DNA from: Thermodesulfobium narugense DSM 14796
GTDB taxonomy: Bacteria; Thermodesulfobiota; Thermodesulfobiia; Thermodesulfobiales; Thermodesulfobiaceae
Direction of reading: 5' to 3'
NCBI RefSeq assembly: GCF_000212395.1
Contig: NC_015499.1
Span: forward strand, 895,501 to 959,500
Length of the DNA: 64,000 bases
This document shows positions 44,043 to 62,269 of the stretch, piece after piece (positions within the stretch are counted from its first letter, which is position 1; every line of letters begins with the position of its first letter). The notes under the pieces were generated by a model, which saw only the letters and a program-made list of their open reading frames with translations, searched no databases and was not told the origin of the DNA. Made by a program: the position numbers and the translations under genes.

Positions 44043-44462
44043 ATTATAGACGTTATATTTGTTACAATAAATTTCTTTGTTATTTTTATTGCAGATAAGG
44101 TAAACGATCTGTTAGGGCCTAAGCTATTGAAAGAAAACTATAACAAGCTTTACAAATATCAGGTTAGACTTGAAGAAATCAAGTATTACACAATGCTTGC
44201 TCTAGCACACAAAAATAAAGATGCACAAAAAGGGTTTGAATATGAGTTTAACGATCTTTATGGTAAATACTTTTTTCTTAAAATAGCTACCAATGCGTTA
44301 TTTTTTGTAATATTAATACCCTATATTTTAATTTCAAGCTTTCTGTTAGATAATGTTAAGATGTTATTTTATCCTGTTAACTATATATTTGTGTGCATGT
44401 TTTTGTATTTTATTTTTAGATTTTTTTTCCTAAATATTAAAAATTTTAATTTAAAAAACTAA
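44043..44462 (+). CDS. Small membrane partner of the TSUP transporter, probable AUU start
   Basis: A 139-residue membrane protein that I do not recognise by name. The frame is open from just after the TSUP stop, and its first 16 residues form a hydrophobic segment (DVIFVTINFFVIFIA) followed by DKVNDLLGPKLLKENY. Two more hydrophobic segments lie in the C-terminal half. No ATG, GTG or TTG exists in this upstream stretch; the only standard start, TTG 44127, would remove it and has no ribosome site. GGAG at 44032-44035 is seven bases before ATT 44043, so I infer an AUU start coupled to the TSUP stop. Confidence 0.5.
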   Translation: MIDVIFVTINFFVIFIADKVNDLLGPKLLKENYNKLYKYQVRLEEIKYYTMLALAHKNKDAQKGFEYEFNDLYGKYFFLKIATNALFFVILIPYILISSFLLDNVKMLFYPVNYIFVCMFLYFIFRFFFLNIKNFNLKN

Positions 44463-44468
44463 ACAGTT

Positions 44469-44527
44469 CTCGCAATTCACTTAAATTTTTAAAAGAGGTT
44501 GAAAACAAGTGGATTGCGAGTTTTTTA
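44469..44527 (+). terminator. Intrinsic terminator after the TSUP unit
   Basis: Arms 44469-44482 and 44507-44520 pair over 14 bases (one G-U) around a 24-base loop, followed by TTTTTT at 44521-44526. It begins seven bases after the stop of the small membrane protein. Confidence 0.8.
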
Positions 44528-44637
44528 TTTGTACAAACATGGTTTACAAATGATTTTTAAATAACAAAATTAGATTGTATTATATAAAAATTTTATTTTT
44601 TTATTATTTTGGTTTTAATTAAAAAAGATTTATTAAG

Positions 44638-44646
44638 TGATATAAT
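44638..44646 (+). promoter_or_regulatory. Extended -10 promoter (TGATATAAT)
   Basis: TG at 44638-44639 and TATAAT at 44641-44646, 113 bases before the PocR-domain gene and after the terminator. It is the likely promoter of that gene with a long leader. Confidence 0.45.
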
Positions 44647-44758
44647 TTTAATTTGTTGCTTTGTGAAAATGTTGGTTTTAATTTATTGTAATAACATTTA
44701 GAATAAATAAAAACCAACTACATACTTAATAGAATTTATTTTCAGGGAGGTCCTATTT

Positions 44759-45283
44759 ATGGAAATTACTGATGTTATTCCTATGTCAGAATTAAGAAAG
44801 CTTGTCGAAGAAATCTACGAGAAGTTTGGTTTTACTGGAGTAGTTTATAAGCCTGATAACTTTATTTTGGTTAGATCAAAAGAGATGGGAAATGCTTTGT
44901 GCCCCTATATAAAGGATAATAGTAACTCGCTTATGATTTGCTCCGTAGCACAACAAATATTAGGGAAAGATGCATTTGATAGCAGAGAAACCGTTATTAA
45001 TGAATGCGATGCCGAAATGGTTAAATTTGTAATCCCTATTTTTGTAGGCAGTGAATTTTTAGGTACAATTGGCGGATGCGGACGCTTAGCTGATGATAAG
45101 GATTCTGTAGAAACCTTTTATATTTCAAAGTTAACCGGGATAGATGAGTCAGAAATAAAAGAACTAGCAAAAACTATAAAGAAAATATCAAAGGATGAGA
45201 TGAATGAAGTAATATCATTTATTAGAAACAGAATAAAGCCTTATATTGAACAATTCACTAAAACTCTAAAAGAAATAAAATAA
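44759..45283 (+). CDS. PocR-type sensory domain protein
   Basis: A 174-residue stand-alone PocR ligand-binding domain. Visible are NALCPYIKDNSNSLMICSVAQQ with paired cysteines, INECDAEMVKFVIPIFVGSEFLGTIGGCG, and a C-terminal helix. Elsewhere this domain is the sensor part of regulators such as PocR and binds small hydrocarbons or organic acids; here no DNA-binding or kinase domain is attached, so it may act through a partner. GGGAGG is eight bases before ATG 44759. It has its own promoter candidate after a terminator. Confidence 0.8.
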   Translation: MEITDVIPMSELRKLVEEIYEKFGFTGVVYKPDNFILVRSKEMGNALCPYIKDNSNSLMICSVAQQILGKDAFDSRETVINECDAEMVKFVIPIFVGSEFLGTIGGCGRLADDKDSVETFYISKLTGIDESEIKELAKTIKKISKDEMNEVISFIRNRIKPYIEQFTKTLKEIK

Positions 45284-45348
45284 ACTAAATAAATTTTGGG
45301 GGGAGGGGAAAAGTTACAAAAATAAAAATTTAATATAAAATTAAAAAT

Positions 45349-46146
45349 ATGAATAAAAATTTTTACGATGAAATGTTAAATATAATAAATGATTATTTTG
45401 TTAAGAGATCTTTCAAAACTTGCTTACAATCTAGCCCTTTATTCTATTTGTTATTAAAAAACATTAAGTTTTTCCAAGGAATTACTAACATTGAAGGGAA
45501 TAAACTTTATTTAGATGATATTTACACTACAAAATTATTAAAAGAAGATTACGAAATACTAGATGATATGTCATTTAACAGCTTAATAAAAAAAGAACAA
45601 TCAAGATGCTATTCACAAGTAAAACAATTTTCAAAAATTTTTATAAAAAGTATATTGGATGAAGTTTATTATACAGCTTTTCCTAAGAATATTAATAACT
45701 TTGATAAGTACTCATATGAACCAATTTTCATTGATTATGAATTGACAGTACCAAATGTTATGAATGCTGCAAAAAAGTTTGAAGAAATTAATGATATTTA
45801 TCCATCATATTTATTTTTAGGCACTAACTTCTTTAATTTATTCATTAATTCTTTACCATCAAGAGACAACAGATCATATAATCCAGATATTAAAAATATT
45901 GGGTTTGATAGTATTTATCATGATATACTTTTAATTCTTCATGAACCATTGTGTCCAAACAATATTGGATATTTTATAATTCCTGAAAAAATATTTTTAG
46001 CAACGACTGAATCAGTTAAATCATATTCTGATAGATTTTCTCCTTTTTTTGCATCCTTTTCGACTGATAAAATTGCCATTAGATTTGGAGCTCAAATAAT
46101 TTCTCATGCGAGGTATTCAGTTCAAAAGGTTGTTTTGAATTGCTGA
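45349..46146 (+). CDS. Unknown protein resembling HK97-fold capsid/encapsulin proteins
   Basis: A 265-residue protein not assigned by any clear family signature. The second half has the order of an HK97-like shell protein: a helix (TVPNVMNAAKKFEEIN), a strand YPSYLFLGTNFF near residues 151-162, a later strand DILLILHEPLCPNNIGYFIIP, then STDKIAIRFGAQI and a terminal hydrophobic strand VQKVVL. This parallels encapsulins and phage major capsid proteins, including the length of 265, but no residue motif proves it. The gene has no Shine-Dalgarno within reach; TATAAA at 45334-45339 lies nine bases upstream of ATG 45349, compatible with a leaderless transcript. Confidence 0.5.
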   Translation: MNKNFYDEMLNIINDYFVKRSFKTCLQSSPLFYLLLKNIKFFQGITNIEGNKLYLDDIYTTKLLKEDYEILDDMSFNSLIKKEQSRCYSQVKQFSKIFIKSILDEVYYTAFPKNINNFDKYSYEPIFIDYELTVPNVMNAAKKFEEINDIYPSYLFLGTNFFNLFINSLPSRDNRSYNPDIKNIGFDSIYHDILLILHEPLCPNNIGYFIIPEKIFLATTESVKSYSDRFSPFFASFSTDKIAIRFGAQIISHARYSVQKVVLNC

Positions 46147-46641
46147 TAATGTATCTTATGTAAACTAAAATGAAAAATTTTTTATAGGCACGTCTATTCT
46201 GAATTGAATATTTAAAAATTCTGAATATCTTGGAAGAATCTGAATAAAATTTATTTTTTGCTTATCAGAATTGCTTAAGAAAGCCATTTATCTTTAAAAA
46301 CGCTGAAATTTCGCTTTAGATCAAATGAAAAATATTTTTTGATGTTTTATATGTCTAAGTATATAATTAGCTCAAATGTGAGCCTAAATTTTTGGATGAT
46401 TTTTTAGAATGTTTTACTAATATCATTAGGTGGCTTATTATTTTTTCTTTCTTACTGGAGCATTACCCTTTTTGCTTATAAATATTTTATAAGTAAATGA
46501 AAACGATGATCTTTTATATTTCTTTATTGATAATCATTTCCCTTTTACAGAAAATTTTGTACGTTACCGTAAACACATAAAAGTTTATAAAAAGTTTAAT
46601 TAACTAAACTTAAAAAAGGAGAGTTTAAATAATCTATTTTA
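46147..46641. other. 495-base gene-free region
   Basis: Very AT-rich, with no ORF of note on either strand. I see short repeats of an ATTCTGAAT-like word near 46196, 46218 and 46237, and a perfect 7-base dyad CTTATAA/TTATAAG at 46475-46493. An orphan AAAGGAGAG at 46615-46623 leads to no start codon. The region borders a decayed gene and looks eroded. Confidence 0.5.
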
Positions 46642-46895
46642 TCACATCTTTTCCAGCACTTTTATAAACTCTTCTTCTCTATTTAATTAACGTCATCGTG
46701 AGTTCCTATATCGACAAGAATTTTCACTTGATTATTAACCAAAGAATTTGCAGCCTTGATTTTATCTGAATGCTTTCTTAAATAACTATTTGCTAGATCT
46801 TCAGCGGTATTAAAGTTGGCCACACCTGTGAGCGCCTTATCGTATATAAAATCTAAAGCCTTTAACATCTTGCCCGCTTCGAAAACTTTATCCAC
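46642..46895 (-). pseudogene. EcsC-family gene fragment with internal deletion
   Basis: The first 57 residues (MDKVFEAGKMLKALDFIYDKALTGVANFNTAEDLA...) match the N-terminal region of EcsC-family proteins, which continue with a Gln-rich and then a TSGF region. Here the frame breaks after NNQVKI and stops at 46683. In another frame, REEEFIKVLEKM with a stop at 46642 resembles a C-terminal tail. So the middle of the gene is missing and both ends remain. GTG 46895 has GAGGAG seven bases upstream, showing that the start signal is still intact. Confidence 0.5.
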
Positions 46896-47104
46896 GCTAA
46901 ATCTCCTCTTTTTTATTTAATCTGTAGCAAAAATATATTTCAATATTTTAAAAGGCTTACTAATATAATTTTAAAATTTTATCACGAATTAACTAATCTT
47001 AAATTTTGAATGTAAAAGAAAAAATTAAAATTTGTTGTATTTTTAGATCTTTTTCGGTAATATATTGTTAAGAGAATACTTATATAGATAAGCGGTGATA
47101 TTTT

Positions 47105-47470
47105 TTGGAAATTATTGAAATATTTAAAATATTAAGCGATGAGACAAGATTTAAGATCATTGAACTTCTATTGCAAAATGACTATTGCGTGGGAGCATTA
47201 GCTAGCAAATTGAATATATCATCTGCTGCTGTTTCACAGCACTTACAAATACTTCGAAAAGCTGGAATTGTAAAAGGAGAAAAAAGAGGTTATTGGACAC
47301 ATTACATTGTAGAAAGAAATGTAATTCGCAAGATGGCAGAAACTTTAAGTAAATTTGCCGATTTACCTAAAAATAATAAAAATTTTTGTTCTCGTGAATC
47401 TTTAGATGAAAAAACTCCGTGTAAATGCGATTTTAAATTTTCTGAACGAAAAAAGCAATTTAAAAAATAA
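47105..47470 (+). CDS. ArsR/SmtB-family metal-sensing regulator
   Basis: A 121-residue winged-helix repressor. The HTH reads LASKLNISSAAVSQHLQILRKAGIV (about residues 35-59). The C-terminal tail adds three cysteines in CSRESLDEKTPCKC that could bind metal or metalloid. TTG 47105 is preceded by GCGGTGAT. The chrA gene follows 215 bases later with a promoter and a repeat in between, so the protein could control itself and chrA (inference). Confidence 0.88.
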   Translation: MEIIEIFKILSDETRFKIIELLLQNDYCVGALASKLNISSAAVSQHLQILRKAGIVKGEKRGYWTHYIVERNVIRKMAETLSKFADLPKNNKNFCSRESLDEKTPCKCDFKFSERKKQFKK

Positions 47471-61215: not shown

Positions 61216-62269
61216 TTAAAAGATAGCTCGAAGTATTCCAACAATTGTTTTACCTAATACCTTATCTATTCCTTCTGCAGATTCTTTAGTTTTACTTCCT
61301 TCAATTGTAGGGTTTGACACGTTATGCTGTGATTCTTGAGAGTTAGATGCAATGTAATTTGGAGAAGAATATTCTACAATAGAATTGTTAATCAAAGCTA
61401 TTTTTTGCTGTTCAGACAAATTTTTAGTTGTATTTATCCAGTCTCTATTTCCCTCTTCATTAAATATTGCGCATAAAACTATTTCTTGCTGTTCAAGTGA
61501 GAGACTAGAAAAATTCGTATCTGCACTTATGTTCAAACCTGATCTATTGCAATACCTTATAACATCGTTTAAATATCTGGAGGAATTATTTTCACTGGGA
61601 GGCGCCCATGTATAAATAATATTCTTTATTGACTCATTTCCGCCATTATAATAACCTGGCTTTCGAATAATATTGTAGTATGCAGCATATATACCAGAAT
61701 TTATATCTTTATAACTATTAAACCCTCCATATTTAGATCTAAGATTGCCTGGATTGTTTGCGCCAGTATTTCCAATAATTTCAGGTTGTCTTTCAATAAA
61801 GTTTGTTCTATAATTTTGCGATGTAGTAGAATTACTTAGAAAATTAGGGACAGGGGAACTCTTATTAATATTCTCTGAGCCATTGTTTATCATTTTAAAA
61901 TTTCCTATATTAACTTCTAAACCATCAGATACCTTAGATACAATATACGGATAATTTTTATCACTTTCTATAACCACTCTAACTTTATTAGGCGTATTTT
62001 GAGCAAAATGAATCTCTTTTGCAATCGGAGATGTCGTCGTAATATTGCCTTTCTTAGAAATAATCGAATTATCGATGTCCAATACAATTCTACCATCAGC
62101 TAGTCTAAAATAATTAAAATTTGGATTACCCTTAACATCGACGAAAACCTCTACCCCATTTTCTGTTGTCTTATAAGAGATATTTTGCACTTTTGGCAGC
62201 GTATCAGCATAAGAAATTCCTATATTTGTAAATAAAAAAATTAAAACTAAAAAACTAAAAAAATTTCAT
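61216..62269 (-). CDS. AMIN-domain, muramidase-like exported protein with frameshifted signal peptide
   Basis: The in-frame part from GTG 62190 (324 residues) has an N-terminal AMIN domain (GVEVFVDVKG, GRIVLDIDNS, KVRVVIESD) and a C-terminal region NNPGNLRSKYGGFNSY...YAAYYN like phage P5-type muramidases. The natural start is further up: ATG 62269 follows GGGGTGAG by six bases. The frame breaks in a run of seven T (62263-62257); with six T the N-terminus would read MKFFSFLVLIFLFTNIGISYA, a proper signal peptide. Without repair or slippage the protein lacks export. Confidence 0.65.

Follow-up and report, generated by a model that had tools for sequence, protein, structure and literature searches.

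A conserved, so far genus-restricted orphan gene beside a stand-alone PocR gene in Thermodesulfobium: a possible sensor-partner pair

An orphan protein of 265 amino acids in Thermodesulfobium narugense raises the question of whether it is a domesticated HK97-type shell protein, as an earlier note had suggested from the apparent order of its helices and strands, or something else that is kept together with the PocR-domain protein encoded next to it. We analysed the orphan gene in the context of a stretch of 64,000 nucleotides (hereafter the window), which corresponds to bases 895501-959500 of the 1,898,865-base single-contig genome. Both genes are present as described: the ATG-started ORF at 45349-46146 on the forward strand encodes exactly 265 amino acids, and the gene directly upstream (44759..45283, forward strand, 174 amino acids) belongs to the PocR family PF10114 with E=7.2e-19 over residues 5-157 and 68.6 bits against a cut-off of 23.9.

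Orthologs of the orphan were found in two of the three other genomes of the genus, with 89% identity in G003 and 82% in G002; the third genome, G001, contains no ortholog. Among the orthologs pS amounts to 0.48-0.71 vs a pN of 0.05-0.10, and dN/dS is 0.045-0.069 with synonymous sites partly saturated, corresponding to strong purifying selection. For the pair formed by the window genome and G003 the value is 0.069, which lies inside the range of four neighboring genes in the same comparison (TauE 0.044, rho 0.050, HflX 0.065, MFS gene 0.102). Residues 1-20 are invariant and substitutions are concentrated in alignment columns 41-60 and 121-140. Because of the orthologs in two genomes and the low dN/dS we regard the ORF as a genuine gene under constraint.

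The designation as an orphan holds for every collection that we searched. Pfam, PHROGs, NCBIfam and PADLOC gave no match better than chance (best E 0.035), no relative above chance was present among PDB sequences, and the same applies to records of phages and plasmids, where the best E was 2. Viral contigs and genome contigs likewise contained no relative above chance, a result that covers other lineages only, since records very near the window genome may be omitted. Matches to Tad8 (E 0.035-0.04), MCM_C (E 0.069), four PHROGs of unknown function (E 0.1-0.6) and the Rfam family snoZ182 (E 0.98, 21 bits vs a cut-off of 80) were rejected as noise. A profile built from the three orthologs was run on 386 and then on 385 genomes, the two sets overlapping. 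The first run returned the three true members and 12 weak matches (E 8e-5 to 0.09); in the second run two genomes, G003 and G053, had matches at E<=0.001. The match in G053 is the best one outside the genus (E=8.1e-5 for one genome), is located inside an ORF that by eye encodes a radical-SAM protein and was taken as chance. The 11 further matches outside the genus (E 0.006-0.09), five of which have internal stops, were also dropped as chance. The orphan is thus a strongly conserved, lineage-specific protein that has so far been seen in one genus only.

The neighboring PocR protein is conserved as well. Its orthologs in G002 and G003 are 79-83% identical, with a dN/dS of 0.092-0.115, while the closest counterpart in G001 is a PocR domain of only ~30% identity within another, longer protein. 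PocR domains were reportedly described by Anantharaman and Aravind in 2005 as predicted sensors of simple hydrocarbon derivatives. In the 174-amino-acid protein Pfam revealed no DNA-binding, kinase or other output domain; one further match, to BET, stayed below its cut-off. Cys48, Cys61 and Cys83 are shared with the PocR proteins L044, L045 and L008-L011. Cys107 is also common to L044 and L045, which are larger proteins with long additional regions after the PocR domain, and is absent from L008-L011. This cysteine is part of a GGC motif; L008-L011 are proteins of 364-365 amino acids that do not carry it in their PocR domain. The stand-alone PocR protein L043, which is more distant (genome G026, 1483-2040 on the minus strand), has all four cysteines when inspected by eye. 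Residues 48, 61, 83 and 107 of the stand-alone PocR proteins possibly form a metal or redox site.

The two genes are separated by 65 nt and have the same orientation. They are adjacent and in the same order in three of the four genomes of the genus (the window genome, G002 and G003), and in G001 both the orphan and a stand-alone pocR are missing. G001 is 94% complete and consists of 140 contigs. Since a fragment of the TauE end, located at the end of a contig, is followed there by other genes and not by pocR or the orphan, the gap is probably more than missing sequence at the TauE junction. In summary, both ORFs are real, are under purifying selection, and are adjacent, co-oriented and jointly present or absent in four genomes. 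In a sample of this size the joint absence may reflect one deletion of neighboring genes without any functional link.

The sequence beyond the pair varies. In G002 it includes DpnII-type restriction and methylase ORFs, an HSDR-like gene lies downstream of the pair in G002 and G003, and in the window this region holds ArsR and a chromate transporter. The HSDR-like restriction gene (L012 6402-7508; L013 4749-5855) is identical between G003 and G002 at 1107 of 1107 bases, although their orphans share 215 of 265 residues; this identity is due either to recent transfer or to sequence carried over between assemblies. Two further small ORFs were noticed around the pair. The first (44127-44462) encodes a conserved protein of 111 amino acids (116 in L013) that is hydrophobic by eye; in the window TauE lies on one side of it and the pair on the other, in G002 it likewise precedes the pair, and it has no match in Pfam, PHROGs or PADLOC. 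The second, a 70-amino-acid ORF at 46683-46895 on the minus strand, resembles the remnant of a longer gene; it is EcsC-like by eye only and without a Pfam match at E<=0.01.

The reading that we tentatively prefer is that the two genes constitute a sensor-partner unit, which has to date been observed in this genus alone. Its upstream gene would supply a solitary PocR sensor domain and the downstream orphan would be its dedicated partner. Ligand binding by PocR, or a change in the state of the conserved cysteines, would alter the activity or the assembly of the orphan. We propose that PocR would act on it by direct contact because the PocR protein here lacks an output domain. What we infer in this reading is the physical partnership, the direction in which the signal passes, the ligand and the activity of the orphan. 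A solitary PocR protein need not have this partner, since L043 is adjoined by thioesterase-like and glutamate-racemase-like ORFs (by eye, ~1.5 kb viewed on each side) and by no orphan homologue in that range.

Candidate signals for joint and for separate expression were both found. Upstream of the pair a promoter-like site at 44619..44646 on the forward strand (TTAAAA, 16 nt, TATAAT, with TG before the latter) matches the consensus at 10 of 12 positions and has an extended -10 element, and TGATATAAT upstream of pocR is identical in all three genomes carrying the pair. A consensus scan of this AT-rich region yielded 22 such sites vs 18.9 expected from shuffles, so that the scan alone is no evidence. 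After the pair, a weak terminator-like hairpin (GCTCAAATGTGAGC followed by CTAAATTTTT; 46370..46383, forward strand) is the only one found in 44440-47150, with a chance expectation of 0.5. Between the two genes a second promoter-like patch (GTTACA-17-TAAAAT, 45313..45341, forward strand, 9 of 12 matches) ends 7 nt before the ATG of the orphan. The 38 alignment columns before this ATG show 31 of 37, 28 of 35 and 27 of 35 identities for the three genome pairs, whereas the preceding 52 columns show 14 of 31, 22 of 30 and 13 of 31; the excess is small for the pair of the window genome and G002, and in G002 the spacing from patch to ATG is 2 nt shorter. Unlike pocR, the orphan has no Shine-Dalgarno sequence adjoining its ATG; a purine-rich run is located ~40 nt upstream. 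Given the 7 nt between patch and ATG and the lack of an adjacent Shine-Dalgarno sequence, the orphan is a candidate leaderless gene, whose transcript may start on the start codon or immediately beside it, as judged from these sequence motifs.

The patch also argues against a sensor-partner unit, as a promoter before the ATG would permit expression of the orphan without PocR. Of the rivals, this one fares best: the orphan may be a lineage-specific cytosolic enzyme or binding protein located beside pocR by chance, the two having separate functions in one niche. We regard this as possible, if rather doubtful. The promoter-like patch of the orphan fits such an arrangement, as does the labile downstream region with its changing restriction, methylase, regulator and transporter genes. 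On the other hand, the two genes are adjacent and ordered in all three genomes having either of them, while the sequence that follows changes.

According to a third explanation the orphan has the HK97 fold and is an encapsulin or phage capsid protein that has diverged, has been retained by the host and self-assembles into a shell, with PocR as cargo or regulator. Read by eye, the order of elements that the earlier note had drawn on is compatible with HK97 proteins, with a putative helix, the YPSYLFLG strand plus a helix, a hairpin and a C-terminal strand. This compatibility may be due to chance. No alignment to encapsulins or capsid proteins rose above decoys. The length of the orphan is close to that of six fetched Family 1 encapsulins (260-288 amino acids). 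Single-sequence AlphaFold2 models of the whole orphan and of residues 124-265 reached pLDDT values of 32.0 and 32.1 and pTM values of 0.30 and 0.19, with every residue below pLDDT 50 in both. No family annotated as capsid or encapsulin was returned for the orphan by Pfam or PHROGs at a limit of E=10, with program filters dropping most matches above about 0.1. The orphan itself has no match to PF04454, and the window genome (G000) contains no match to PF04454, PF05065 or PF25209.

We compared the orphan by hhalign with profiles of encapsulins, of phage capsid proteins and of a diverse capsid set. Six of ten encapsulin matches were used for a first profile, the rest being partial or containing a stop; for a second one of 16 sequences we added 10 of 16 new loci, those that passed a length and position filter. 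The phage capsid proteins comprised 23 of 25 loci (two were incomplete) and the diverse set 23 of 24 matches. Against the six encapsulins the orphan scored 18.1 (P=0.098), with residues 133-173 aligned to profile positions 151-191 and hence near the main diagonal, which speaks for the HK97 explanation. Of 48 unrelated window proteins 9 scored as high, and so did 4 of 100 column shuffles, two of them near the same diagonal as the orphan. With 16 encapsulins the score of the orphan dropped to 14.2 vs a decoy mean of 14.4 (49 decoys, the orphan itself among them). The best of seven encapsulin templates gave 19.8, a value that 8 of the 48 window proteins also reached, as did 9 of 100 shuffles. In the diverse capsid set, no protein out of 23 matched the orphan (best P 0.16).

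The controls limit what can be read from these values. Three comparisons of one capsid group with another scored (P 0.0015-0.0027) and one did not (L106, P 0.065), and the positive control of encapsulins against capsids failed (P 0.74 by hhalign). Since encapsulins do not find capsids either, the profile miss is weak evidence against HK97. Semi-global profile alignment was without power: the z of the orphan was about 0, and capsids vs encapsulins ranged from -0.7 to 2.4. The sequence tests therefore do not support HK97 for the orphan, and the miss argues only weakly against it.

The surroundings of the gene were considered as well. A cargo-loading peptide in a neighboring gene, for which the earlier note had suggested looking, did not appear in PocR, the one neighbor aligned: the last 16 alignment columns are the least conserved part of the protein and 14 of them vary among three sequences. 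That portal, terminase and protease genes are missing nearby was borne out by reading the ORF lists of the window by eye (ORFs of at least 80 or 120 amino acids); neither a capsid gene nor a head-morphogenesis module was seen in these lists. Comparison of fourteen other window ORFs with PHROGs likewise yielded none of the portal, terminase and protease families. One of them, at 61216-62190 and thus 15 kb from the orphan, gave the only phage-type match and is endolysin-like: it matches phrog_873 (E=6.2e-8), a family that PHROGs assigns to head and packaging, and has a weak match to a tape-measure family (E=0.00086). Of the other 13 ORFs one matched a regulator, and the rest either gave families without known function or had no match. 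No paper naming both Thermodesulfobium and encapsulin was found in the literature searched. Taking the decoys, the genome-wide Pfam result, the variable PocR C-terminus and the phage context together, an HK97-like shell is a minority possibility for the orphan, and we consider it unlikely. Its most far-reaching form, a genus-specific domesticated HK97 shell in a deep-branching bacterium that is invisible to profiles and in which the ligand-sensing PocR replaces the cargo enzyme to give a sensor-gated compartment, would be very improbable.

That the orphan was domesticated from a virus or mobile element absent from public data, with a fold unrelated to capsids, appears highly unlikely: it would agree with the failure of the collections searched to yield relatives beyond the genus and with a GC content of 24.4% vs 30.1% for the window, yet no viral relative was found, selection acts on the orphan as on an established host gene, and the low GC does not clearly indicate a foreign origin, since the GC3 of 0.177 differs little from the 0.197 of rho.

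Being well conserved and lineage-specific and having a stable sensor neighbor, this gene is a tractable orphan with a testable partner. Should its fold turn out to be HK97 after all, encapsulin-like proteins would exist that escape profile searches.

Among known systems, phage HK97-type major capsid proteins (PF05065, PF25209) resemble the orphan in the by-eye order of predicted elements only; they differ in that the orphan has no profile match to them and that portal, terminase and protease were not seen in the window. Encapsulins of Family 1 (PF04454, Linocin_M18) are of similar length and share the two-gene arrangement with an upstream partner. A passage in PMC8346489 defines an encapsulin by the HK97 fold together with shell assembly and cargo loading, and the same source describes for Family 1 an arrangement of two genes in which the partner immediately precedes the encapsulin. 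In contrast, the orphan shows no sequence match to this family and has no known cargo enzyme, and its neighbor carries no conserved C-terminal peptide. PocR (PF10114) regulators provide the third comparison. As far as PMC4207490 treats them, PocR domains occur in AraC-family regulators and in histidine kinases of microcompartment loci. The upstream gene resembles these regulators in its PocR domain with the shared Cys48, Cys61 and Cys83, and differs from them in that the domain is solitary, with no HTH or kinase found and with an orphan gene adjoining it.
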